Shown piece by piece: positions 4,741 through 53,938 of a DNA stretch of 64,000 nucleotides. A program made the position numbers and the translations under genes. Position 1 is the stretch's first letter. Each line of letters starts with the position of its first letter. Source of the stretch: a virus; the IMG/VR virus record IMGVR_UViG_3300021962_000051, positions 35,169 through 99,168 of that record. One strand, written 5' to 3'. The notes under the pieces were generated by a model. It was not told the DNA's origin. It saw only the letters and a list, made by a program, of their open reading frames with translations, and made no database searches.

Positions 4741-5394
4741 ATGAAACTGATTAGAGAACATACCGAAGAAGTTAAATACTTGGTCGAAGCACCAGTCGGT
4801 AAAGAAAAGAATTATTTCATTGAAGGTGTATTCCTTCAAGCAGAAATGAAAAACAGAAATGGACGTAGCTATCCTTTGGAAGTTATGCAAAAAGAGGTAG
4901 GACGTTACACTTCTGAGTATATTAATAAAAATCGTGCATACGGAGAATTAGGACATCCTGATACTCCATCGATTAATCTAGATCGTGTTTCGCACATGAT
5001 CAAAGAGTTGAGACTTGAAGGCAGTAACTTTGTCGGCAAGGCAAAAATTATGGATACACCATATGGTAAGATTGTAAAAAGTCTTATTGACGAGGGTGCG
5101 AATCTCGGTGTGTCTTCTAGAGGGATGGGTTCTTTGAAAACAACGTCAGACGGAACACAAGTTGTTCAAGATGACTTCATGCTAGCAACTGCTGCAGATA
5201 TTGTAGCAGATCCAAGTGCACCAGATGCATTTGTTCGTGGAGTTATGGAGGGCAAGGAGTGGGTATTCGTTGACGGAAAATTTATTGATGCAGATATTGC
5301 TGCTATCAAACGTAATATACAGAAAGCAACCTCTAAACAATTGGAGGAGGCAAAAGCATATGCGTTTGCACAATTCCTGCGTAAAATTCAATAA
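4741..5394 (+). CDS. gp21: Prohead core scaffold protease, gp21-like
   Basis: Serine protease of the herpes-assemblin type that digests the inner core and trims the major capsid protein after (I/L)xE motifs. The 217 residues match T4 gp21 (212). Expected motifs are visible: AYGELGHPDTPSINLDRVSH with the catalytic His region, and GANLGVSSRGMGSL with the catalytic Ser region. It sits in the usual place just before the scaffold and capsid genes. Confidence 0.93.
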   Translation: MKLIREHTEEVKYLVEAPVGKEKNYFIEGVFLQAEMKNRNGRSYPLEVMQKEVGRYTSEYINKNRAYGELGHPDTPSINLDRVSHMIKELRLEGSNFVGKAKIMDTPYGKIVKSLIDEGANLGVSSRGMGSLKTTSDGTQVVQDDFMLATAADIVADPSAPDAFVRGVMEGKEWVFVDGKFIDADIAAIKRNIQKATSKQLEEAKAYAFAQFLRKIQ

Positions 5395-5397
5395 TTA

Positions 5398-5404
5398 CTA
5401 AATA
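5398..5404 (+). promoter_or_regulatory. Candidate late promoter CTAAATA before scaffold gene
   Basis: CTAAATA, one base from the core of T4 late TATAAATA, lies 33 bp upstream of the gp22 start in a non-coding gap. The same heptamer recurs before other structural genes here. Confidence 0.5.
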
Positions 5405-5420
5405 TAATGAGAACTCATTA
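5405..5420 (+). repeat. Perfect inverted repeat TAATGAG-AA-CTCATTA upstream of gp22
   Basis: Seven-base arms around a two-base centre, placed between the late promoter candidate and the gp22 ribosome site AAGGAG. As RNA it could fold in the gp22 leader (with a loop wider than two bases); as DNA it could bind a dimeric protein. No function is established. Confidence 0.4.
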
Positions 5421-5436
5421 GTTAAGGAGAAACAAA

Positions 5437-6540
5437 ATGTCAATCGAGCAAAAAATTGCTGAACTTCTAGAAGAGTCTAAAAAAGCACAAGAAGTTGCTG
5501 CTACTCTAGAAGAGGCTGTAGGTGAAGACGAAAAGCAAGAAGAAGTTGCTGAAGTTGTAGAACCTGCTAAAGAAGAAGAAATTTCCATTTCTGAAGAAGA
5601 AGTGATCGACGAGTCTAAGAAGAAACCTATGAAAGAAGAGGATGACGAGGACGAAGAAGATGACGACAAAGAAGAAATGAAAAAAGACGACGAAGACGAA
5701 GATGAAGATGACGATAAGGAAGATAAGAAAAAATCTCCTATCGAATTTAAAAAAGGCGAAAAAGAGAAAATGAAAGAAGAAACAGAAACTGCTGAAGACG
5801 AATTCACAGTAGACGTATCTGATGACGTTAAGGCTCTTTTAAATGGCGAAGAACTTTCAGAAGAGTTCCAAGCTAAAGCTAAAACCATTTTCGAAACTGT
5901 TGTTGTATCTCGTGTAAAACAAGAAGTTGCACGAGTAACCGAAGAATTGAAAGCAGAAAATGAGAAATCATTGGAAGCGATTAAAGAGGGACTTGTTGAA
6001 AAAGTTGATGGATACCTCAACTACGTAGTTGAGCAGTGGATTGAACAAAATGAAATTGCCCTTGAATCTGGTATGAAAAATGAAATCCTAGAGAACTTTG
6101 TTTCTGGTCTTAAGAATCTATTTGAAGAGCATTATATCGATATTCCTGAAGAGAAATTCGATGTACTTGGCGATTTACAAGAACAAGTAAATACTCTTAC
6201 AAATAAACTTAACGAACAGACAGAAGTAAATGTTAAAATGTCAGGCACTATCAATGATATGAAACGTGCTGAGATTGTTTCTAACGAAGCAAAGGAAATG
6301 ACTGAAACAGATGCTGAAAAGTTTAAAGGGTTAGTCGAAGACTTATCTTACGAAGATGTTGATTCATTTACGAAGAAAGTCAAAACTATACGTGAAAACT
6401 ACTTTGCTAAAAAGGCAACTAGTGTTAATGTTAAGTCTGTAGTTTCAGATGAGCCAGTAACAAATCTTCAAGAGGAAAAATATGTTGATCCTACTATGAA
6501 GAAATATACTGAAATGCTTAATCTGTCACGTAAGTCTTAA
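5437..6540 (+). CDS. gp22: Prohead core scaffold protein, gp22-like
   Basis: Internal scaffold around which the capsid shell assembles, later degraded by gp21. The 367 residues (T4 gp22: 269) begin with a helical EQKIAELLEESKKAQ segment, have an extremely acidic low-complexity stretch at about residues 60-105, and a long helical coiled-coil C-terminal half ending in MKKYTEMLNLSRKS. A C-terminal xxMxxYxxxLxR pattern is typical of T4-like scaffolds. AAGGAG precedes the ATG. The acidic region produces long antisense open frames rich in Ser that are not genes. Confidence 0.9.
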   Translation: MSIEQKIAELLEESKKAQEVAATLEEAVGEDEKQEEVAEVVEPAKEEEISISEEEVIDESKKKPMKEEDDEDEEDDDKEEMKKDDEDEDEDDDKEDKKKSPIEFKKGEKEKMKEETETAEDEFTVDVSDDVKALLNGEELSEEFQAKAKTIFETVVVSRVKQEVARVTEELKAENEKSLEAIKEGLVEKVDGYLNYVVEQWIEQNEIALESGMKNEILENFVSGLKNLFEEHYIDIPEEKFDVLGDLQEQVNTLTNKLNEQTEVNVKMSGTINDMKRAEIVSNEAKEMTETDAEKFKGLVEDLSYEDVDSFTKKVKTIRENYFAKKATSVNVKSVVSDEPVTNLQEEKYVDPTMKKYTEMLNLSRKS

Positions 6541-6571
6541 TTTAACTTTTTCAACTTAAGGAGAAACTATC

Positions 6572-7840
6572 ATGGATCGTAAAGATCTTCTAAAAAAATG
6601 GGCTCCCATCCTTGAACACGATGGCGTTGCTCCAATTAAAGATAGCTATAGAAAAGAAGTAACTGCTGTTCTTCTAGAGAACCAAGAAAAATCTCTACGT
6701 GAAGAAAAGCAAGCACTTTTCGAAGCTACTCACAGTAACGCTGCAGGTGCATTACCTGATGCTGGTGGTGTTGCTAAATTCGACCCAGTACTAATTTCAT
6801 TAGTACGTCGTGCTGCTCCTCAAATGATCGCTTATGACGTTTGTGGTGTACAACCAATGACTCAGCCAACTGGTTTGATTTTTGCTATGAAAGCAAAATA
6901 CTCATCTCAAGGTGGTACTGAAGCATTATTCAATGAAGCTGACACAGACTTCTCTGGTACAGGTACTCACGCTGGTGCAAACCCAGTTGATGGTACTTAC
7001 ACTACTGGTGAAGGTATGACAACTTCTGCTGCTGAAGGTTTAGGTGATGGAAGCACTTTCAATGAAATGGCTTTCTCAATCGAGAAAACTTCAGTAACTG
7101 CTAAGTCACGTGCTCTTAAAGCAGAGTACACTGTTGAATTAGCGCAAGATCTTAAGTCAGTACATGGCTTAGATGCTGAAGGAGAATTATCAAATATTCT
7201 TTCTACAGAAATTCTTGCTGAGATCAACAGAGAAGTAATCAGAACTATCTACACATCTGCTAAAACAGGTGCTGCTGTAGGAACTGCTGCTTCTGGTACT
7301 TTTGACTTAGACGTAGACGCTAATGGACGTTGGTCTGTTGAGAAATTCAAAGGACTATTGTTCCAAATCGAACGTGAAGCAAATGCTATCGCTCAAGCTA
7401 CTCGTCGTGGTAAAGGTAACTTCATCATCTGTTCATCAGATGTTGCAAGTGCTTTAGCTATGGCTGGTGTACTTGACTACGCTCCAGCTTTAAATACTAG
7501 CTTAAATGTTGATGAAGCATCAACTACTTTCGCTGGTGTTCTAAATGGACGTTACAAAGTATATGTTGATCCATATGCTGCGAACCAAGCATCTTCACAG
7601 TACTTCTTAGTAGGTTACAAAGGCTCTTCAGCATTCGATGCTGGTATGTTCTACTGCCCATATGTACCTCTACAATTAGTACGTGCAGTTGATCCTGCTA
7701 CTTTCCAGCCCAAAATTGGCTTTAAGACCAGATACGGCATGGTTGCGAATCCTTTCACATCTCTTGATGGGTCTGGTAATGGTTTGGCTGCAGGTCAAAA
7801 CTACTACTACAGAAAAGTTAAAGTTGCAAACTTAATGTAA
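6572..7840 (+). CDS. gp23: Major capsid protein, gp23-like
   Basis: Main hexamer protein of the head. The 422 residues are shorter than T4 gp23 (521) but usual for marine T4-like phages. Recognisable segments are LVRRAAPQMIAYDVCGVQPM, PTGLIFAMKAKY, SRALKAEYTVELAQDLKSVHG and the C-terminal LVRAVDPATFQPKIGFKTRYG. A likely gp21 cleavage site is L49-F50-E51, giving a mature protein that begins ATHSNAAG. AAGGAG lies upstream of the ATG. A strong terminator follows, as expected for a highly expressed gene. Confidence 0.97.
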   Translation: MDRKDLLKKWAPILEHDGVAPIKDSYRKEVTAVLLENQEKSLREEKQALFEATHSNAAGALPDAGGVAKFDPVLISLVRRAAPQMIAYDVCGVQPMTQPTGLIFAMKAKYSSQGGTEALFNEADTDFSGTGTHAGANPVDGTYTTGEGMTTSAAEGLGDGSTFNEMAFSIEKTSVTAKSRALKAEYTVELAQDLKSVHGLDAEGELSNILSTEILAEINREVIRTIYTSAKTGAAVGTAASGTFDLDVDANGRWSVEKFKGLLFQIEREANAIAQATRRGKGNFIICSSDVASALAMAGVLDYAPALNTSLNVDEASTTFAGVLNGRYKVYVDPYAANQASSQYFLVGYKGSSAFDAGMFYCPYVPLQLVRAVDPATFQPKIGFKTRYGMVANPFTSLDGSGNGLAAGQNYYYRKVKVANLM

Positions 7841-15583: not shown

Positions 15584-15657
15584 AATGGTGTGGCGGAATG
15601 GTTACGCAGAGGATTGCAAATCCTCCTATCCGAGTTCGATTCTCGGCACCATTTCCA
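15584..15657 (+). tRNA. tRNA-Cys (anticodon GCA)
   Basis: Acceptor AATGGTG (15584-15590) pairs with CACCATT (15647-15653). The D stem is GCG/CGC, the anticodon stem GAGGA/TCCTC encloses loop TTGCAAA with anticodon GCA, and the T stem CCGAG/CTCGG encloses TTCGATT. The discriminator is U and CCA is encoded at 15655-15657. U73 with GCA fits cysteine tRNA identity. It lies right after a strong promoter and 20 bp before a small gene. Confidence 0.95.
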
Positions 15658-28567: not shown

Positions 28568-28597
28568 AGTCGTTGAAAATAAATGAAAGGAACAAAT

Positions 28598-29098
28598 ATG
28601 TTTAAAAAACTAATCCCTGCTGTAGCACTTATTGCTATGGTGGCAAATCCAGCACTTGCAAATGCAAATAATGGATATTACGCAGTTGTTGAAAACGTTA
28701 TCAATAACACAAAAACTATTTCAACTCCACAACAAGTATGTACACAACAGCTTGTAACTGAGAGAGTCGATAATCAAGACTTGATTGGTGGTGTTGAGGG
28801 TGTTATCGGTGGTATTGCTGGTGGTGTAATCGGTAATCAAATCGGTAAAGGTAATGGTAATCAAATTGCAACTGTACTAGGTGCAATCATTGGTAACAGA
28901 GCAATGGCTAAACCTGGAAAACCAGAATACAAACAAGTTGAGAGAATGGTATGTAATACTGTTTACGAAAGTAAAACTCAAACTGTTGACTACACTGTTA
29001 CTTTAAGGTATAATGGTGTTGTTTGGAATACGACTATGCTTTCTGCTCCACCAATTGGATCGAAAGTAAGAGTAAATGGTATTTCTGTTGGCGAATAA
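28598..29098 (+). CDS. Secreted glycine-zipper protein (17 kDa antigen/SlyB-like)
   Basis: A 166-residue protein with a clear signal peptide (basic KK, hydrophobic LIPAVALIAMVANPALA, cleavage near ANA) and a central glycine-zipper IGGVEGVIGGIAGGVIGNQIG plus VLGAIIGNR, the pattern of Rick_17kDa/SlyB-type outer membrane proteins. Four Cys may form disulfides. ATG 28598 follows AAAGGAAC; ATG 28583 is in the leader. As a promoter-linked early-type gene it might alter the host envelope, for example against superinfection, which is inference. Confidence 0.8.
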   Translation: MFKKLIPAVALIAMVANPALANANNGYYAVVENVINNTKTISTPQQVCTQQLVTERVDNQDLIGGVEGVIGGIAGGVIGNQIGKGNGNQIATVLGAIIGNRAMAKPGKPEYKQVERMVCNTVYESKTQTVDYTVTLRYNGVVWNTTMLSAPPIGSKVRVNGISVGE

Positions 29099-32108: not shown

Positions 32109-33404
32109 ATGGTAAAAACTATCACAGCACCTATCAAATATGATGCTGAACATCTAGTTGGACAGTTTGTTGACGAGTCCCACTATGATACTCTGATTGA
32201 AGAGGATTGTGATTTTTATGCGCCAACTCCAGTTGGTGAAGAAAATAGCGAAGAAAATATTATTTTCAAGTTTCGTAAAAATTACTTCACGAAAGAAGAA
32301 CAAGATACTGCTTACGCTGGTTTGCGTGAAGCAGCAGTAGAAACTCAAAATCGTGGTATGGCAGCAGGACCAAAAGCTGGTTCTCTTGGCAATCGTGAAT
32401 GGGTTACTGAATACCAAATGGAAATTATGGATGCGTTTTGCAAACCTACAGAAAATCTATTTGGTGTAGATCGTATCGACGAGATTAAGAATAAGTATGG
32501 TGACAATCGTGCATCTGCTCCATCTTCTCGTGGAGTTGTTTGGTCAATTAACCGAACTAAAGATGAAGGATTCGAATTTGATGCATGGGTTGAAGACACT
32601 CGTAAGATGTCTCAAGATGATGCAAAGACAGAATCTGAGCGAGTATTGAAGCAGTTGGTATGTGCCACTACTTATGCTAACTCAGTATTCTCAGGTATCG
32701 CTGGATTCTTTGATCGTTATCCTCGTATTCCATGGGGACGTCCAACAGCATTTACTGAAAAGAATCAAGCCAAGTATGAAATGGCATTCCCATTCCTACA
32801 ACATTTGAGTAAGGGATTCAAAGATCTATTACCTATTCGTTATGGTAAGCAAATTGCTGCATGCGAAAAACTAGATTCAAAATTTGTTATTCCTGGAACA
32901 CCATTCACTACTGTCACAGTAAATAAAACTTTTAGAACTGCTGCACACCGAGATGCTGGAGATTTGAACGATGGATTCTCGAACCTTACTGTTGTCTCTA
33001 ATAATGGTAAGTATGTGGGTGGTTATCTCGTCTTTCCTGAGTTTCGTGTTGCAGTAAACATTCGTCCTGGAGATCTACTTCTTGTGAACAATCACGAGGG
33101 TATCCATGGCAATACTGAAATGACAGCTGAAGAGGGAGCAGAGCGTATATCATTCGTTTGTTACTTCCGTGAGAAAATGCTAGAACTTGGTTCTTGGGAT
33201 TACGAAATGACTCGTAAACAGTTTGTTGAAGATCGTAAGAATAACAAAGAGCATCCTCAACAAAAGCATTTGTGGAATGGCGTAAGCGAAGGTATGTGGG
33301 AAAGTCAAGAGTGGTATGATTATCTAACAGAACGATTGGGTGAGAATACTGTAATGACTTATCATCCTAATGCTGTTAAGTCTTCACTTGAGGCATTCTT
33401 TTAA
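32109..33404 (+). CDS. 2OG-Fe(II) oxygenase of TET/JBP type, candidate thymine or base hydroxylase
   Basis: A 431-residue protein. At about residues 275-345 it has a double-stranded beta-helix oxygenase core: TAAHRDAGDLNDGFSNLTVV gives the H-x-D iron ligands, followed by GGYLVFPEFRVAVNIRPGDL and NNHEGIHGN with the distal His, and then a 2OG-binding Arg region (ERISFVCYF). The HxDxGD, GGxLxFPE and HG(N) pattern is that of TET/JBP oxygenases, which oxidise 5-methyl groups of bases in DNA. It heads an operon of possible base-modification enzymes. The substrate (thymine versus 5-methylcytosine) is inference. Confidence 0.72.
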   Translation: MVKTITAPIKYDAEHLVGQFVDESHYDTLIEEDCDFYAPTPVGEENSEENIIFKFRKNYFTKEEQDTAYAGLREAAVETQNRGMAAGPKAGSLGNREWVTEYQMEIMDAFCKPTENLFGVDRIDEIKNKYGDNRASAPSSRGVVWSINRTKDEGFEFDAWVEDTRKMSQDDAKTESERVLKQLVCATTYANSVFSGIAGFFDRYPRIPWGRPTAFTEKNQAKYEMAFPFLQHLSKGFKDLLPIRYGKQIAACEKLDSKFVIPGTPFTTVTVNKTFRTAAHRDAGDLNDGFSNLTVVSNNGKYVGGYLVFPEFRVAVNIRPGDLLLVNNHEGIHGNTEMTAEEGAERISFVCYFREKMLELGSWDYEMTRKQFVEDRKNNKEHPQQKHLWNGVSEGMWESQEWYDYLTERLGENTVMTYHPNAVKSSLEAFF

Positions 33405-34099
33405 TGTGCGCAATCGTTGGTATCTCAATCAAAGGTATAACACCTCAACAAGAATTACGTGTAGAACGATTAATTCGTGAAGCAATGATTCGTGGTAAAC
33501 ATGCCACTGGAGTTAGTTATATCCAAAAAGGTAAACTACAATCTATAAAAGAACCTATCCCTGCAGATGAATTTATGCAGAAGTATCCAATCGACAACTT
33601 TGTTGATTTAGATGGATGGAAACGTGATCTCTTTATGATTGTTCATTGCAGATATTCAACGTCAGATATTAAATACAACCAACCCTTTTTCAATAAGAGT
33701 TTTTCACTAGCACACAATGGTGTGATTAGTCAAGAACTACCAGAGAATTGGGAAAAACTGTATGGCTTTAAATGTGAGACCAAGAACGACAGTGAACTAC
33801 TCTTTCACACTGTCGTTGCTGGTCAATCACCACTTAAAGTTTGGCAGGAATCCTCAATTGCAGCAGTAGAATTATATGATAATTACAATCTTCGTTTTTA
33901 TCGTAATGGTCGAAGACCACTGCACTTGACTGATATTGGTACTGGGTATATAATTACTTCTACGAAAGATATTGTTAAACGATCAGGATTTGATATTATA
34001 GATGAACAGGAAGTTGTTCCTGGAACTTATTTTAATCTTGAGAAAGACCATACTATGTCGTTTGAAGATTCAGGAGTGAAAATAGATGACTTACAATAA
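33404..34099 (+). CDS. Class II glutamine amidotransferase (Ntn hydrolase)
   Basis: A 231-residue protein starting MCAIVGI, so that Cys2 becomes the N-terminal nucleophile. It also has a RGKHATGVSYI segment (cf. RGxDxxG), a HCRYST (cf. HxRxAT), and AHNGVI (cf. HNGxI) with KNDSELLF. These are the motifs of the GATase-II domain of PurF, GlmS and AsnB. No synthase domain is attached, so it must feed ammonia or a glutamine-derived group to another enzyme, perhaps the amidoligase next door. ATG overlaps the previous stop by one base. Confidence 0.85.
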   Translation: MCAIVGISIKGITPQQELRVERLIREAMIRGKHATGVSYIQKGKLQSIKEPIPADEFMQKYPIDNFVDLDGWKRDLFMIVHCRYSTSDIKYNQPFFNKSFSLAHNGVISQELPENWEKLYGFKCETKNDSELLFHTVVAGQSPLKVWQESSIAAVELYDNYNLRFYRNGRRPLHLTDIGTGYIITSTKDIVKRSGFDIIDEQEVVPGTYFNLEKDHTMSFEDSGVKIDDLQ

Positions 34100-34967
34100 A
34101 GAAAATTTTACATGGGGTTATGAAGTAGAATGGGGCGATATCGATCGTCGTCTAACTATCCCTGCAGATCTCGGTAAGTGGGAATATGCAGAAACTGATA
34201 TTGTTAATCTACACGAACCTTTCCAATATATTGCTTGCGATCCACTAGGTGAAGAACCATATATGGGTGGCGAAGTAAATATGATGCCGACTAAAACTTG
34301 GCAAGAACAAGTAGATCGTATTATCGACCTACGAGAGTTTTTCAAATACCACGGAAACCAACCTACTGCGTCTTGTGTTAATCACGGACATCTACACGTT
34401 TATGTTCCTGGATTGAAAGATGACATCGGTGCTCTTAAGAAACTGATTGCTTATATCAAAGCAAATCAAAATGCAGTAATTGAACATTGTTATGGGTTTT
34501 ACGATCATCCAGAAATGAAGAACAGTAAAGGTGCAAAGATGTATCTTAAGTTTGATGGTGGTCGTCCAATGCCAGATTATATGTGTGACAATATTATTAA
34601 TCTTGCTACCGACTTTGATCATTTTATTAAACTCCATGCTGCAGGTAAAGATGGTGTGTCAATGGGTAGACCATTTAGATTCGCTATTAATACCTATTGT
34701 ATGAAACATACTGGAACAATTGAGTTTCGTTGTTTCCGATCTACAACTGATACACAACAGATTAAAGATCAGTTTAAATTTGCTGAGAAGTTTGTTGATG
34801 CAGCATTGAACGATGGACCAAGTGTAGAAAACATTTTATTCGAACAAGGTTATAATTATAACTTTCCTCCATTTGTATGGGACTGGAAAGAATATAATGG
34901 TTGGGTAAATACCAAATACGAAAAAGAGCGTGGTAATAAAGTAAGAGAATACCATGAAGTTGCATAA
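34086..34967 (+). CDS. Putative amidoligase (glutamine synthetase/GCS-like COOH-NH2 ligase)
   Basis: A 293-residue protein with the amidoligase-type pattern: N-terminal WGYEVEWGDID (GxExE-like metal/ATP region), CVNHGHLHVYVPG (HxHxH-like), and FRFAINTYCMKHTGTIEFRCF with the conserved TxExR end. Such enzymes join a carboxyl to an amine with ATP. It overlaps the amidotransferase by 14 bases. Pairing with GATase-II and GNAT genes is known for amidoligases in phages and is proposed to modify peptides, metabolites or bases. Confidence 0.75.
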   Translation: MTYNKENFTWGYEVEWGDIDRRLTIPADLGKWEYAETDIVNLHEPFQYIACDPLGEEPYMGGEVNMMPTKTWQEQVDRIIDLREFFKYHGNQPTASCVNHGHLHVYVPGLKDDIGALKKLIAYIKANQNAVIEHCYGFYDHPEMKNSKGAKMYLKFDGGRPMPDYMCDNIINLATDFDHFIKLHAAGKDGVSMGRPFRFAINTYCMKHTGTIEFRCFRSTTDTQQIKDQFKFAEKFVDAALNDGPSVENILFEQGYNYNFPPFVWDWKEYNGWVNTKYEKERGNKVREYHEVA

Positions 34968-35505
34968 AGTAACAAGAGAGCAATTCGTTTCAGCAATCAC
35001 TGATGATCCTGCTGATAAGTTTGCGAAAACTTTTGTTGCGAAAGCCAATATGCAAGAGCAGTGGGAGTGTGGCTCTCATCATCTTTGTATGGGTTTATGG
35101 GATGAAGATAAACTAATGGGTGCTATTATTACTTCTATCTCTAAACGAGATCCAAAGGTAGCCAATCTACAATTACTACATACATTTGCTGCATATCGTG
35201 GTAAAGGTGTAGGTAAAACTCTTTCATTAGACAGTTTACGTTATGCGATACACGAGAAAGCACAATACTTCCGTGTCAGTGCAGAGATACCAGCAATAGA
35301 ATTTTATAAGAAAATTGGCTTTGAAATGCTAGGAGAACAGAAGTCTGGATGTCAACTAAGTATGTTCAAAGTTAATCCAGAAATGAAATCCTTTGAAGAG
35401 GGTGATTACGATATTAATGATGCAACAATCTTCAACGCAGTATATAAAAAAGGTAAAGGTGGTTGTGTTAAAGTTTTCAAAGAAACAGAATCACTTTTTG
35501 GGTAG
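34954..35505 (+). CDS. GNAT-family N-acetyltransferase
   Basis: A 183-residue protein with the GNAT fold: LMGAIITSISKRD (strands 2-3), NLQLLHTFAAYRGKGVGKTL containing the acetyl-CoA pyrophosphate loop R/QxxGxG/A (YRGKGVGKT), and AIEFYKKIGFEML (motif B). It overlaps the amidoligase by 14 bases. In this operon it may acylate an amine put on a base or metabolite; that is inference. Confidence 0.85.
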   Translation: MKLHKVTREQFVSAITDDPADKFAKTFVAKANMQEQWECGSHHLCMGLWDEDKLMGAIITSISKRDPKVANLQLLHTFAAYRGKGVGKTLSLDSLRYAIHEKAQYFRVSAEIPAIEFYKKIGFEMLGEQKSGCQLSMFKVNPEMKSFEEGDYDINDATIFNAVYKKGKGGCVKVFKETESLFG

Positions 35506-35508
35506 GCA

Positions 35509-36099
35509 ATGAACCAGTATTACTTTCATCTTTCAATACCAGAAATAAAACATCCTTTAAATGAAGTAGGACAGAAATGGTTTGATGCTCTTAAAGGTGG
35601 GCATTGGAACATTCCTCGTGAATATATCTCTAACGATTTAATTAAATTTGCACCAAAGGTTGGATTGCAATTCTTTGATGCAGAAGTCTTCAGTCTTCCT
35701 GCAAACTATCAATTACAAATTCACGTAGATGCTACGAATATGTCACGTAAGTGTAAACTTAATTGGGCATATAGCGAGGGTGAGCATTACAATGTTTGGT
35801 ATACTCCCAAGAAAACTTGGAGTAGAATAGCTACTGCAGAAGAACAGAGTGATGGTGCATTAGACGATTACTCTTTTGTATTTGAATTAGATGAAGTGGA
35901 TGAAGTAGCAAGGACTGTACTAAAGAATCCTACTGCTGTAGTAAGTGGTCAACCACATAGTGTGATTACTACGACACATCCAAGAAAGTCTATCTCTGTT
36001 ACTCTTATGCCAAAGGGAACAATTCCATTCGAAAAAGATTGGGGTATTCCTATTGACGAAATGAGAAACTATTTGAAAGACTACATTATTAATGACTGA
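35509..36099 (+). CDS. Second 2OG-Fe(II) oxygenase-like protein
   Basis: A 196-residue protein with QLQIHVDATNMSRKCKLNWA (H-x-D iron ligands and following strands) and VSGQPHSVITTTHPRKSISV (distal His and the Arg that binds 2OG). The fold is that of small aspartyl/prolyl-hydroxylase-type oxygenases. It sits in the same operon as the TET/JBP-like gene, so it might act on a later intermediate. Substrate unknown. Confidence 0.65.
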   Translation: MNQYYFHLSIPEIKHPLNEVGQKWFDALKGGHWNIPREYISNDLIKFAPKVGLQFFDAEVFSLPANYQLQIHVDATNMSRKCKLNWAYSEGEHYNVWYTPKKTWSRIATAEEQSDGALDDYSFVFELDEVDEVARTVLKNPTAVVSGQPHSVITTTHPRKSISVTLMPKGTIPFEKDWGIPIDEMRNYLKDYIIND

Positions 36100-37123
36100 T
36101 TTCCGTGAACAAAAAAATCGACGTGAAGCATTTATCAGATGGTATGCTTGGTCGATAAAATATAAAGATTGTGATCCATCAGTTTGGATGACAAACTATC
36201 TAAACGATAGATACGAACATAATACTGAAGAAAGGTTTTGGTTGTGTTGGCTATACGGAAATACATATTATCTGCCAACCTCATGGGTACTAAAAAATGA
36301 ATTTCCTGACTACGAACTTGCAACAATTGACAGACTCAATTGGTGGAATAGTGAAAACTATAAACGACTACGTTATCAAACAGATACAAAATATAACAAA
36401 GGACATCTCCCACAGATGTTCGAATCTTACCAAAGAGAAATTGGTAAATCTCTTCAATCCAAGTACTTTGAAAACTTATTGGGAGACAATGAAACAGATT
36501 CCTTCCACAGAGTATGGGAAACTGTCAAAAAGAACTTTCATAAATTTGGTAGATACACTACTTGGTTTTACATGCAACATTTGTATTCTACTTGTAATCT
36601 CCCTGTGGTTCCTAACACTCTTTGGTTTTCTGATCATTCTGGGAGTAGGAGTCATCGTAATGGTTTTCTTTTTGCACTTGGAAGAGAAGATCTTATCGAC
36701 GAGAAACTGGATACAAAACAAACAGAGTGGCTCGAATCTGAAGGGAAGTCTTTCCTCGAAGAAATGAACAGACGTTATCCAGAGTATAAAAAAGATATTA
36801 ACTTTTATACAATGGAAACTTGTCTATGTTCGTTTAAGAAAATCTTCCGTGAACACCATGGACGTTATCTTGGTTATTACCTAGATCGTCAAGCAGAAGA
36901 AATCTCTCAAGTCCAAAGTGATGGATGGTATGGTATTGAGTGGGACGTATTATGGCAAGCACGAAGTGAAATGCTAGATCCTCGTCTTATCGATAAACGA
37001 GGTATCAATAAAGAAAAGTTTGCAAATTTTATTAATACTGGATCAATGGATCGTTTGGAATGGATGTATGATGATGTATCCTCAAATCAATTCTTTTCTC
37101 TAGAAAATGCCTTGCAATATTAA
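36092..37123 (+). CDS. Helical protein resembling DNA-base hypermodification enzymes (aGPT-Pase/HMUDK-helical type)
   Basis: A 343-residue helical protein with many conserved aromatic residues: FIRWYAWSIKYKDCDPSVWM, WLCWLYGNTYYLPTSWVLKN, LRYQTDTKYNKGHLPQMFES and FGRYTTWFYMQHLY. I associate this pattern with the helical families found with 5-hydroxymethyl-uracil DNA kinase and alpha-glutamyl/putrescinyl-thymine enzymes in phages. In such systems it would replace a pyrophosphate on the base with an amino acid or amine. The assignment is from memory of the families, without alignment. It overlaps the oxygenase by 8 bases. Confidence 0.55.
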   Translation: MTDFREQKNRREAFIRWYAWSIKYKDCDPSVWMTNYLNDRYEHNTEERFWLCWLYGNTYYLPTSWVLKNEFPDYELATIDRLNWWNSENYKRLRYQTDTKYNKGHLPQMFESYQREIGKSLQSKYFENLLGDNETDSFHRVWETVKKNFHKFGRYTTWFYMQHLYSTCNLPVVPNTLWFSDHSGSRSHRNGFLFALGREDLIDEKLDTKQTEWLESEGKSFLEEMNRRYPEYKKDINFYTMETCLCSFKKIFREHHGRYLGYYLDRQAEEISQVQSDGWYGIEWDVLWQARSEMLDPRLIDKRGINKEKFANFINTGSMDRLEWMYDDVSSNQFFSLENALQY

Positions 37124-37138
37124 TTGTAGTATAATTAT

Positions 37139-37375
37139 ATGAAGAAAACGAAAACTTACATACATGTCAACCAACACGTTATACGAGCAAATAAAAAGAA
37201 TGGGACGTCAGATCCTGTTATTACTGTCAAGCAAGGACGAAAGAACACTTATTGTTCAGAGGTTAAAGTCCTTGGTCCATGCACCATTGTTTATGGGGGT
37301 AATGATAAACCTATTCTTTCTTGTGGTGCTAGGGTTGTTATATTAACTGAATCGGAAGTGGAGATAATTAAATGA
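37139..37375 (+). CDS. Small conserved phage protein, unknown function
   Basis: A 78-residue basic beta-rich protein, KTYIHVNQHVIRANKKNG then PVITVKQGRKNTYC and ILSCGARVVI. Very similar small proteins occur next to hypermodification-type genes in marine phages by my recollection, without a known role. A TATAAT at 37130 lies immediately before the ATG, so either the mRNA is leaderless or the motif is not used. It overlaps the kinase start by 4 bases. Confidence 0.65.
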   Translation: MKKTKTYIHVNQHVIRANKKNGTSDPVITVKQGRKNTYCSEVKVLGPCTIVYGGNDKPILSCGARVVILTESEVEIIK

Positions 37376-37923
37376 GTTTAAAACTAATTGGAATAGTCGG
37401 CATGCCAGGAACTGGTAAAACTACGTTGATGAAAGAGTGGATGGCAAAACGAGAGTGGACAAAAGACACTCCAGTTAAATTGCTTGATAGTCTAATTAGT
37501 GGCGACATTCGCTTATTTGGTAAGTATGAAGAGGGTGATACCTTTGCTGGTACAGATAAACTCTCTATGGCTGTCCAACCTGCAGCACTAGAATACATAC
37601 GTATGCCTACTCACGATGTTAATATATTCGAGGGAGATCGTCTAACTTCCTTTGCTTTCTTTAATGAAGCAGTTAAAGAGGGTTATGATGTTTCTATTAT
37701 CGTTCTAAAAGTATCTGATGCAATTCGAGAGCAACGTTATAAAGAGCGTGGATCCGACCAATCAGAAACCTTTATTCAAGGACGTAGAACTAAGATCGAG
37801 AATATCATTAATAGGTTTAGTGGCTCTCCATTGACTGGAGATCCCTCTCTTGTCACAGAGTTCGAACACTCTACACCTGAAGACACACAAAAAATCATTG
37901 CCCATATTGAATCTTTGCTCTAG
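37372..37923 (+). CDS. P-loop kinase, candidate DNA-base kinase
   Basis: A 183-residue P-loop NTPase with Walker A GMPGTGKTT, a Walker B-like DVNIFEGDRL, and a lid-type RYKERGSDQ. It resembles small nucleoside/nucleotide kinases. Standing next to the helical hypermodification-type protein it may supply the kinase half of a 5-hydroxymethyl-uracil DNA kinase, which is fused in some phages. An ordinary nucleotide kinase role is the alternative. Confidence 0.65.
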   Translation: MSLKLIGIVGMPGTGKTTLMKEWMAKREWTKDTPVKLLDSLISGDIRLFGKYEEGDTFAGTDKLSMAVQPAALEYIRMPTHDVNIFEGDRLTSFAFFNEAVKEGYDVSIIVLKVSDAIREQRYKERGSDQSETFIQGRRTKIENIINRFSGSPLTGDPSLVTEFEHSTPEDTQKIIAHIESLL

Positions 37924-37943
37924 TTTGCAAGGATTGCCTTTTC

Positions 37944-40469: not shown

Positions 40470-41708
40470 GTGGCATTCGGATTTAAAGATTATTTAAAAG
40501 AACAGAAAAATACTCACATGGAGCATCTAGAGGATCTAGTGTTCAATGAGGGTATGGTTGGTACAAACAAAGCCATTAAATTCCTAGAGGATCTCTTGGG
40601 AATGCTTTCTGGTAATGCGACGACTAAAGTATCTGCCACTGTAAAGTGGGATGGTGCTCCTGCTATCTTTGCTGGTATTGATCCACGAGATGGCAAATTC
40701 TTCGTAGCGAAGAAAGGTGTCTTCAATAAAGATCCTAAAGTTTACAAGACTGCTGCAGATATTAATGCTGACGTCTCTGGCGATCTTGCTGCAAAATTAA
40801 AAGTAGCATTAGTTGAATTAAAGAAACTTGGTATTACCAAAGGTGTATTCCAAGGCGATCTAATGTTTACAAAATCAGATTTAAAAACAGAAAAAATTAA
40901 TGGTGAGTCTTATTTGACTTTCCACCCTAACACTATTGTATACGCTGTTCCTCTTAAGAGTAATCTAGCGACACAAATTAAAAAAGCAAATATGGGTATC
41001 GTTTGGCATACCTCCTACGAAGGATCTTCATTTGAAACAATGAAAGCATCTTTCGGTAAAACTATTATGAATAAGTTAAAATCGTCTCCAAGTGTTTGGA
41101 TGGACGATGCTAACTATAAAGATTATAGTGGTACAGCTACCTTTACCAAAGCTGAAACCACAGCAGTAACAAACGAAATTAAGAAAGCAAAGGCTCTTTC
41201 TTCTAGTTTGAATACTAAAATGGTAGATGACATTCATAAAGATGAAGCACTACTGACACATATTAAGACTTATAATAATACCAAAGTAAGAGAGGGTGAA
41301 GAAATTACAAACATTGCAGCACACGTTGCTGGGTTGTTTCATTATATTCACGATAAATATCAAAAAGAAATTGACTCCAAAAAGACTGACAAATCGAAGT
41401 CTTCTTGGGAAGAAAAACGTAAGAATGTATTAAAGTATTTCTCGGCACACGATCAAAATGAGATCGTTAAAATCTTCGAACTAACTAATCTTTTGACTTC
41501 CATCAAAAGTGCAGTTATTACCAAGATGAATCAAGCTGGTCATATCAATACATTCTTGAAAACTACAGACGGATTTAAGGTTACTGGAGTTGAGGGATTT
41601 GTAGCTATTGACCACCTCTCTGGTAATGCTGTAAAGATTGTAGATAGGCTCGAATTTAGCAAATCTAACTTCTCTCCTGACATAATTAAAGGGTGGCAGA
41701 AGAATTAA
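40470..41708 (+). CDS. Ligase-like nucleotidyltransferase protein, GTG start
   Basis: A 412-residue protein with VKWDGAPAIFAGI, matching the K-x-D-G motif I of DNA/RNA ligases and capping enzymes (the Lys takes AMP). FVAKKGVF and VFQGDLMFT resemble motifs IIIa/III. Motif V is not obvious, so activity is unsure. It may be the phage DUF family with the KWDGAP motif known from marine phages. GTG 40470 has GGGGA upstream and begins MAFGFKDYLKEQ; ATG-starting alternatives lie inside the conserved part. Confidence 0.6.
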   Translation: MAFGFKDYLKEQKNTHMEHLEDLVFNEGMVGTNKAIKFLEDLLGMLSGNATTKVSATVKWDGAPAIFAGIDPRDGKFFVAKKGVFNKDPKVYKTAADINADVSGDLAAKLKVALVELKKLGITKGVFQGDLMFTKSDLKTEKINGESYLTFHPNTIVYAVPLKSNLATQIKKANMGIVWHTSYEGSSFETMKASFGKTIMNKLKSSPSVWMDDANYKDYSGTATFTKAETTAVTNEIKKAKALSSSLNTKMVDDIHKDEALLTHIKTYNNTKVREGEEITNIAAHVAGLFHYIHDKYQKEIDSKKTDKSKSSWEEKRKNVLKYFSAHDQNEIVKIFELTNLLTSIKSAVITKMNQAGHINTFLKTTDGFKVTGVEGFVAIDHLSGNAVKIVDRLEFSKSNFSPDIIKGWQKN

Positions 41709-53254: not shown

Positions 53255-53938
53255 ATGAACGTGAGATTGATCTCTTATTCTATGCCACCTAAAGATGCAT
53301 TTATTGGCTTAGATAATCTTATGGATATTATTGCCTATTGTGCACGAGTATCTAATCCCAGCAATCAAATGAATAATGAAACTGCTGAGAAGTTAATTAA
53401 ATACTTGATTAAGCATCAGCATTGGTCTCCTCTTGAGATGGTCAGTGCTTGTTTAGAGATTAATACGACTAGAGATATCGCACATCAGATTGTGCGTCAT
53501 CGTTCGTTTAGTTTCCAAGAGTTTTCACAGCGTTATGCTGATCCTGCAGACATGGGTAATCAATTTGTTATTCGTGATGCACGACTACAAGATTTAAAGA
53601 ATCGTCAAAACAGCATTGAAACAGAAAATGTTGAACTTCACCATCAATGGATTGAACGTCAACAAGCTGTTATTGAATTGGCTAAAGCCACATACGAATG
53701 GGCAATCTCTGAAGGGATTGCGAAAGAACAGGCTCGAGTAATTTTACCTGAGGGTAATACCAAATCTCGACTGTATATGAACGGAACTTTGCGTTCTTGG
53801 ATTCACTACATTCAGTTACGTAGTGCACACGGAACACAAAAGGAACATATGGAAATTGCGAAGGAATGTGCGTGTGTTATTGCCAGCATATTTCCTCTTA
53901 TTAAGGACTTGTTAAATGACGAAACACAAAGTAGTTGA
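53255..53938 (+). CDS. thyX: Flavin-dependent thymidylate synthase ThyX
   Basis: Makes dTMP from dUMP with FAD and methylene-tetrahydrofolate. The 227 residues show the ThyX signature RHRSFSFQEFSQRY (RHRxxSxxxxSxRY type), LEINTTRDIAHQIV and the substrate-binding EGNTKSRLYMNGTLRSWIHY. It supplies thymine, so a modified thymine in this phage would come from later steps. AAGGAATT precedes the ATG. Confidence 0.95.
   Translation: MNVRLISYSMPPKDAFIGLDNLMDIIAYCARVSNPSNQMNNETAEKLIKYLIKHQHWSPLEMVSACLEINTTRDIAHQIVRHRSFSFQEFSQRYADPADMGNQFVIRDARLQDLKNRQNSIETENVELHHQWIERQQAVIELAKATYEWAISEGIAKEQARVILPEGNTKSRLYMNGTLRSWIHYIQLRSAHGTQKEHMEIAKECACVIASIFPLIKDLLNDETQSS

Follow-up and report, generated by a model that had tools for sequence, protein, structure and literature searches.

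What would a phage make with an operon that sets a TET/JBP-type oxygenase beside a glutamine amidotransferase, a carboxylate-amine ligase and an amino acid:DNA transferase? The operon lies in 64,000 nucleotides of DNA (the window; positions 35,169 to 99,168 of IMG/VR record IMGVR_UViG_3300021962_000051) from an uncultured, T4-like phage, and we think that it probably directs post-replicative hypermodification of thymine along a proposed path from the TET oxygenase to a kinase, an amino acid:DNA transferase (ADDT) and a glutamine amidotransferase (GATase)/amidoligase pair. A sequence-only reading of the window had proposed base hypermodification with thymine as a likely target; this is favoured here, the ADDT family being common to three chemically characterised thymine-hypermodified phages.

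Gene content of the operon

Inspection of open reading frames and motifs gave eight translationally coupled ORFs (Table 1). Seven coupled genes had been counted earlier: the coupling stands, as the frames overlap or abut, but the count does not, because of an additional 78-aa ORF. Overlaps measure 1 nt (TET/GATase), 14 nt (GATase/amidoligase and amidoligase/GNAT), 8 nt (P5/ADDT) and 4 nt (78-aa ORF/kinase), and gaps of 3 nt and 15 nt separate GNAT from P5 and ADDT from the 78-aa ORF. No excess of sigma-70-like promoters over shuffled expectation was found across the region; terminator-like sites there numbered nine (mean expected 3.2), one of them at 37910-37935, right at the end of the kinase gene.

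Table 1. Genes of the operon (32109-37923) and the thymidylate synthase gene of the same window
Product	Position	Strand	Evidence or context
TET/JBP-type 2OG-Fe(II) oxygenase, 431 aa	32109..33404	+	Pfam Tet_JBP PF12851, 1.8e-22
Class-II glutamine amidotransferase (GATase), 231 aa, Ntn glutaminase domain only	33404..34099	+	GATase_6, 1.3e-8
Amidoligase, glutamine synthetase/GCS-type carboxylate-amine ligase, 293 aa	34086..34967	+	Amidoligase_2, 0.0012; family and predicted fold
GNAT acetyltransferase, 183 aa	34954..35505	+	Acetyltransf_10, 2.9e-14
P5, small double-stranded beta-helix 2OG/Fe(II)-type oxygenase, 196 aa	35509..36099	+	Conserved residues, AF2 fold
ADDT (amino acid:DNA transferase family PF18724), 343 aa	36092..37123	+	PF18724, 1.6e-14
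78-aa protein, phrog_8676	37139..37375	+	Between ADDT and kinase; 3' end overlaps kinase start
P-loop kinase (Ploopntkinase3 PF18751), 183 aa	37372..37923	+	PF18751, 2.9e-17
ThyX flavin-dependent thymidylate synthase	53255..53938	+	Thy1, 3.5e-43; outside operon, context

The motifs on which the earlier labels rested are present: HRDAGD, GGYLVFPE and HEGIHGN in the TET, MCAIVGI in the GATase, GYEVEW and TIEFRCF in the amidoligase, and YRGKGVGKT in the GNAT. Profile matches uphold the TET/JBP-like, GATase-II, GNAT and P-loop kinase assignments. Two labels fall: PF20515 matches the oxygenase at 32109 at an E-value of only 0.13, its family being PF12851, and the protein at 36092, likened to HMUDK-helical families, is instead placed by Pfam in the ADDT family (a PDB sequence search with it returned no match).

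Catalytic residues are kept across relatives of the cassette. The TET profile matched human TET2 in the PDB at 5e-6, with HRD aligned to HRD, and H280, D282, H333 and R346 are invariant across 30 diverse relatives. In the GATase, C2, R83, N105, G106 and D129 are each at least 97% conserved among 76 sequences, and all class-II hallmarks (N-terminal Cys nucleophile, Arg, Asn-Gly, Asp) are intact. An amidoligase-like label had also been proposed; the relatives and the fold support it, but the protein itself scores 19.2 bits, under the Pfam cut-off of 22, and its fold matches are weak. Amidoligase_2 is matched by 20 of 22 aligned relatives (best 1.4e-8), and an AF2 model (pLDDT 91.7) has as its best 50 PDB matches only GS, GCS, YbdK, glutathione synthetase and PafA structures, with a best E-value of 2.7e-3 and none below 0.001; by sequence, the PDB gave a single unrelated match (E 0.32).

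P5 had no credible Pfam match and no match in a PDB sequence search. Its H72, D74 and H150 are invariant, as in an HxD...H facial triad, R159 is at least 90% conserved, and its AF2 model (pLDDT 89.6) is a double-stranded beta-helix with weak PDB matches that include FIH, NO66, ALKBH2 and proline hydroxylase. The earlier suggestion of a second 2OG oxygenase is thus supported by residues and predicted fold, and P5 may be taken as a 2OG/Fe(II)-type enzyme. The 78-aa ORF shares 69.7% DNA identity (37157-37351) with Melnitz phages, in which the TET had no match, so it is probably a bystander gene and not one of the pathway's enzymes.

A cassette common to many aquatic phages

Among 45 dereplicated IMG/VR loci, chosen solely by their amidoligase, the neighbours stand in the same order: TET in 35 of 36, GATase and GNAT in 44 of 44 each, ADDT in 29 of 29 and kinase in 25 of 25. 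The neighbourhood search that had been proposed thus finds the order in dozens of viral contigs, beyond chance; the cassette is real and its order is common to many aquatic phages. That the cluster is decaying or accidental, with no joint function, is very hard to credit given catalytic residues that are conserved and a gene order that recurs across dozens of divergent contigs, and we found no point in its favour. Among isolated phages no complete cassette was found, and the amidoligase has a single match, 25% identical, in phage Simon. Cellular genomes yielded one amidoligase relative, in a MAG titled Actinomycetota; since the 3.6-kb contig concerned bears GATase-amidoligase-GNAT and the beginning of an ADDT, it is probably of phage origin.

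The P5 position is more changeable. Most aquatic relatives have a ParB-motif gene there, and other cassettes have other tailoring-type genes (glycosyltransferase, radical SAM, LMW phosphatase). Within the phage's own record, the only relative of the ParB-motif gene was a weak match at 40602 (E 0.006). Kinship between this slot gene and actinophage ParB is only suggested, by the motif DGNHT/AGNHT together with a weak match of profiles. P5 itself tracks the TET lineage of its own phage rather than the ADDT cassette, a TET being present in the loci of 21 of 24 P5 relatives.

Proposed pathway

We infer the substrate base, the order of reactions, all of the products and the purpose as follows. Ordinary T would go into DNA, where the TET, a predicted DNA-acting hydroxylase of the thymine 5-methyl group, would oxidise that group in the polymer to give 5-hydroxymethyl-dU. 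The P-loop kinase, predicted from its family to be a 5-hydroxymethyl-base DNA kinase, would phosphorylate the hydroxymethyl, and the ADDT, predicted to swap that phosphate for an amine or amino acid, would put an amino acid, bound through its amino group, or ammonia in its place, leaving an N-linked 5-methylene adduct. The GATase, the predicted ammonia source, would draw on glutamine, and an amide would be formed on the adduct by the GS-fold amidoligase at the expense of ATP; this amide step is the least certain of the pathway. Further acyl or hydroxyl additions could come from GNAT, a predicted acyl tailoring enzyme, and from P5. Most likely the modification serves to shield the DNA from host nucleases or bacterial defences.

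We hold only tentatively that the product is an undescribed class of base, in which a TET-made hydroxymethyl on thymine receives glutamine nitrogen in an amide side chain through a GS-fold ligase and exchangeable tailoring lets the final base vary among phages. The exchangeable set comprises GNAT, the small 2OG oxygenase, radical SAM, and glycosyltransferase with phosphatase.

Possible uses of glutamine nitrogen

The GATase ammonia might instead enter at the ADDT step or close to it, yielding 5-aminomethyl-dU that is then acylated by the amidoligase or, in cassettes lacking one, by an alternative GNAT. This variant is possible though doubtful, and its probability overlaps that of the main explanation. 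Ten records have a GATase and no detectable amidoligase, which shows that the GATase does more than partner the amidoligase; amidoligase-free cassettes with an alternative GNAT (L010, L014, L015, L026, L030 and L071) combine it with TET, ADDT and kinase. The reverse, an amidoligase lacking a GATase, never occurs (44 of 44), so the GATase is core and the amidoligase optional. Against the 5-aminomethyl variant, no GATase was detected alongside the ADDT/TET/kinase cassettes of actinophages, and ADDT needs none in general; known relatives reportedly install alkylamines (PMC6449724).

An unlikely alternative is that GATase, amidoligase and GNAT are merely co-located in the operon and act outside DNA, for example in a cell-wall or peptide modification against superinfection. 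LUZ24-like phages speak for it, in that genes for an ATP-grasp protein and another COOH-NH2 ligase lie next to their GATase and amidoligase (PMC3890496), with no TET in the stretch examined, and for phiEco32 a role at the cell wall has been cited (PMC10580990). LUZ24 and PaP3 resemble the present operon in a GATase (~25% identical) with an amidoligase beside it; however, their GATase gene encodes 517 aa as against 231 here, and TET, ADDT and kinase had no match in the region examined. In the present cassettes, by contrast, the three genes hold an invariant position between TET and ADDT-kinase, their frames overlap, and tailoring-type genes are swapped into the slot; all of this argues against a separate, non-DNA role.

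Thymine or cytosine

A TET acting on 5-methylcytosine, with a hypermodified cytosine as the operon's product, is improbable. In its favour, 5mC is the substrate of TET2-type dioxygenases, and the best PDB relatives of the profile are human TET2. However, the ADDT family goes with known thymine modification, and a C5-methyltransferase (PF00145) was found in none of 16 TET-bearing records, among them the deposited complete genomes of DLP6, Cr30 and C48C1 and a 168-kb contig, in a search that was positive in 10 of 14 control genomes. The phage's own record is 99 kb and possibly incomplete, so that absence of a methyltransferase or hydroxymethylase there is no proof, and 5mC could come from the host. 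In that record no dUMP/dCMP hydroxymethylase or other TS-family gene (PF00303) was found, in line with the earlier remark that ThyX is present and a dUMP hydroxymethylase is not seen; among the 16 TET-bearing records PF00303 occurs in Cr30 only. ThyX, the supplier of ordinary dTMP, is present in 11 of the 16 (this phage and 10 of 15 others). Because the 16 records yielded no C5-methyltransferase and ThyX is present, oxidation of thymine at the polymer level, as previously suggested, is the best reading, and the presence of a TET with no TS-family gene likewise favours it.

Comparison with known systems

Hypermodified thymines are chemically proven in M6, Vi01 and PhiW-14 (PMC6449724, PMC5977210, PMC11721090), and the M6, ViI and PhiW-14 pathways share 5-hydroxymethyl-dU as an intermediate, followed by a DNA kinase step, amine transfer and tailoring (PMC6449724). 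PF18724 occurs in M6, Vi01, PhiW-14, Bane1, Tonitrus, Cr30 and the present phage. The first three have PF00303 and lack PF12851 and PF18751, the kinase family found here, whereas the present phage, Bane1 and Tonitrus show the reverse: in the former a TS-family enzyme produces hydroxymethyl-dU at the nucleotide level, and in the latter a TET takes the place of that gene. No GATase/amidoligase branch is described for M6, ViI or PhiW-14 in the literature found.

Bane1 (Mycobacterium) and Tonitrus (Rhodococcus), whose cassette has been termed a thymidine hypermodification system in Tonitrus (PMC11955845), share with the present phage the TET (under the Pfam Tet_JBP cut-off, at 5.5e-6 and 7.7e-8, respectively), the ADDT (annotated aGPT-Pplase2), the PF18751 kinase and the lack of a TS-family gene. 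Kinase homologues adjoin aGPT-Pplase2/ADDT in Mycobacterium, Gordonia and Rhodococcus phages, and Gordonia phages with the PF18751 kinase probably have the same type of TET cassette. Unlike the present operon, the actinophage stretches had no detectable GATase, amidoligase, GNAT or second oxygenase, and their cassettes begin with a ParB-like gene that is absent here.

Phage TETs paired with a C5-methyltransferase reportedly produce hypermodified cytosine, according to Burke et al. in 2021. Those systems are alike in that a TET acts first on the DNA polymer and tailoring genes adjoin it, but they differ in the methyltransferase, which was found in none of the 16 TET-bearing records here. DLP6, one of the phages that pair a TET with a TET-associated glycosyltransferase (TAGT), has a TET of the same family (50% identical) and the glycosyltransferase PF20691 where the present operon has ADDT, and its DNA is reported to resist restriction enzymes (PMC8228603). 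Synechococcus phage S-B43 provides a proven case of an ATP-dependent ligase that forms an amide on a modified DNA base (CmoX/CmoY, making 5-carboxymethylcytosine-glycine amide; PMC12783734). The likeness extends to the ATP-dependent amide on a base, a glutamine-hydrolysing domain in some of the ligases and ParB-domain proteins nearby; S-B43, however, uses a cytosine carboxymethyltransferase handle and an asparagine-synthetase-like adenylating ligase, in contrast to the TET start and GS/GCS-fold ligase here, and PF00145 revealed no CmoX-type C5-MTase-like gene in the phage's own record or the 16 TET-bearing records.

The combination of a TET oxygenase with a glutamine-using, amide-forming pair is unlike every chemically solved case compared. 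Relative to the literature found, whose coverage is partial and which may miss an earlier description, the new elements are the glutamine-dependent amide branch and the exchangeable tailoring genes. If the pathway is correct, the same amino-acid:DNA transferase chemistry has been reached from two unrelated starts, a nucleotide-level synthase or a polymer-level TET, and the known reactions on DNA bases would come to include glutamine-driven amide synthesis through a GS-fold ligase. TETs that oxidise thymine instead of 5mC would make useful tools, and the prediction of a thymine-acting TET applies to the cultured phages Bane1, Tonitrus, Cr30 and DLP6. A large family of cassettes with exchangeable slots would amount to a library of DNA-modifying enzymes.

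Organization and conservation of the operon

The operon lies in a 99,168-bp IMG/VR virus record, of which the window is bases 35169-99168. Upstream of the operon are genes encoding a family-B DNA polymerase, a protein of the RecA type, and a helicase of the DnaB type; genes for ThyX and ribonucleotide reductase follow downstream, and these surroundings resemble those of T4-like phages. Every motif cited in the sequence-only reading is present, and Pfam and PHROGs bear out its oxygenase, GATase-II, GNAT, and P-loop kinase calls, with matches to Tet_JBP (the oxygenase TET), class-II glutamine amidotransferase (GATase), GNAT acetyltransferase, the 'amino acid:DNA transferase' family (ADDT), phrog_8676, and Ploopntkinase3 (PF18751). 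For the amidoligase-like assignment, the window protein's own Pfam match to Amidoligase_2 is weak, but 20 of 22 aligned relatives match this family, and its predicted model (pLDDT 91.7) has ligase-type fold neighbors, with glutamine synthetases, glutamate-cysteine ligases, YbdK, bifunctional glutathione synthetase, and PafA among the solved structures listed (best E-value 2.7e-3).

Features of the window and of viral loci used for comparison
Record	Position	Strand	Feature
Window	32109-37923	+	Eight head-to-tail ORFs, neighbors overlapping or separated by short gaps
Window	28583-29098		Outer-membrane-type protein with a glycine zipper (Rick_17kDa_Anti, 2.4e-8), flanked by the DNA polymerase and RecA-like genes
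Window	15584-15657		One tRNA-Cys gene only
L036	4912-7404		Glycosyltransferase-like protein, distant amidoligase (1.4e-8), and low-molecular-weight phosphatase in cassette
L015, L057	13725-15155		Radical SAM protein (Pfam, 7e-13) between ADDT and kinase
L158, L165	3257-6600		334-aa protein without Pfam match, 149-aa protein, P5 relative
L003 (phage C48C1)	13323-15355		UDP-galactopyranose mutase (5.6e-52), two genes past TET
L156, L157	about 4800-7690		Tandemly arrayed paralogs (four or five) of P5-like beta-helix oxygenases, apparently without TET in the stretch examined

P5, the gene between GNAT and ADDT, was assigned no family in Pfam or PHROGs. Its proposed identity as a second 2OG oxygenase is nonetheless supported by H72, D74, and H150, invariant across its relatives, by a near-invariant R159, and by a confident, beta-rich AlphaFold2 model (pLDDT 89.6) whose weak matches among solved structures include FIH, NO66, ALKBH2, and proline hydroxylase; viral matches include phage proteins annotated as aspartyl/asparaginyl/prolyl hydroxylases. 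Since TET is present in 21 of 24 loci holding P5 relatives, some with ADDT and others without, P5 seems linked to the window's TET lineage.

Scans of IMG/VR returned 56 loci with TET as query, 10 with ADDT, and 80 with the amidoligase (kept from 226 relatives matched). The suggested gene-neighborhood search found the same order recurring among 45 loci for which the amidoligase was the sole basis of selection, after dereplication at 95% DNA identity, each count being limited to loci with sufficient sequence on the relevant side: TET is upstream of the amidoligase in 35/36 (downstream in L088, the sole exception), and GATase (44/44), GNAT (44/44), ADDT (29/29), and kinase (25/25) are always present. 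These loci are fairly close kin and so not fully independent, with amidoligases 69-81% identical, leaving aside an identical contig, but their TETs are more divergent, with identities as low as about 42%. All cassette relatives compared maintain the catalytic residues. Judged by these comparisons, the cassette is conserved.

The probable target base

Thymine hypermodifications are chemically known in M6, Vi01, and PhiW-14 (PMC6449724, PMC5977210, PMC11721090), each of which has ADDT and a gene of the TS family (PF00303); neither TET nor PF18751 was found in them. The window's phage shares ADDT with these phages but has TET and PF18751, as do Bane1 and Tonitrus, and no TS-family gene was found in any of these last three; for the window, the earlier reading likewise saw no dUMP hydroxymethylase. 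In Cr30, ADDT and TET are accompanied by a strong TS match. A search of 16 TET-bearing records for a C5-methyltransferase found none, and 11 of these records have ThyX. Given this exchange of TS-family gene for TET, the lack of C5-methyltransferase matches, and the frequency of ThyX, the simplest reading is still the one first proposed, that TET would substitute for a nucleotide-level hydroxymethylase by oxidizing thymine in the DNA polymer. DLP6, with TET and a TET-associated glycosyltransferase and no ADDT, is listed as having restriction-enzyme-resistant DNA (PMC8228603). Several database labels at L001, L002, and L182 look like propagated misannotations: 'SNF2 DNA repair protein' for the TETs of DLP6 and Cr30, 'queuine tRNA-ribosyltransferase' for the TET Bane1 gp2, and 'terminase small subunit' or 'adenylate kinase' for PF18751 kinases.

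Possible role of the glutamine branch

The amidoligase is never seen without GATase, whereas GATase occurs without the amidoligase, which leaves two possible reaction orders. In the one we place slightly ahead, ADDT would install an amino acid that the ligase would then amidate with ammonia from GATase. This order is preferred because alkylamine transfer is the activity described for relatives (PMC6449724) and because phage S-B43 has a proven case of an amide ligase working on a DNA base, with use of ammonia from glutamine predicted for a related cluster (PMC12783734). Slightly behind it, ammonia from GATase would enter earlier, and the resulting amine would be capped by the ligase or a GNAT. 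A cell-wall role, which PMC10580990 cites as a hypothesis on GATase/amidoligase pairs of phages, is less likely here since the pair has a fixed place inside a DNA-modification cassette.

Modularity of the cassette

The Tonitrus TET-ADDT-kinase operon has already been called a thymidine hypermodification system (PMC11955845). To these genes the window adds GATase, amidoligase, GNAT, and the putative second oxygenase, a combination for which we found no description in the accessible literature, which omits key earlier analyses; the full cassette occurs in none of the isolated phages in the collection searched.

Compared across loci, the cassette is modular, with a core of TET-GATase-ADDT-kinase. 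In most relatives, the slot between GNAT and ADDT is filled by a gene of 430-500 aa that carries a ParB-like motif, DGNHT/DGNTR (62 and 5 loci; weak Pfam match to ParB_N, 0.2); in the window, P5 occupies the slot, and the ParB-motif gene was not found in the window's own record. There are also cassettes without the amidoligase, the majority with a different GNAT (a search of ten such records, one of them 126 kb, found no amidoligase); a further type combines a glycosyltransferase and a low-molecular-weight phosphatase with a distant amidoligase, and another has a radical SAM protein. The nearest relatives of the window's TET, in L158 and L165, have no ADDT cassette; the 149-aa protein there may be HAD-like, and the gene set is possibly another branch from the same oxidized base. 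In C48C1, the UDP-galactopyranose mutase two genes after TET suggests galactofuranose on the base. The TET tree requires at least five switches between lineages with and without the ADDT cassette when only better-supported labels are used (nine with all labels, some of which come from short contigs), and by this phylogeny the downstream chemistry is swapped among TET lineages.
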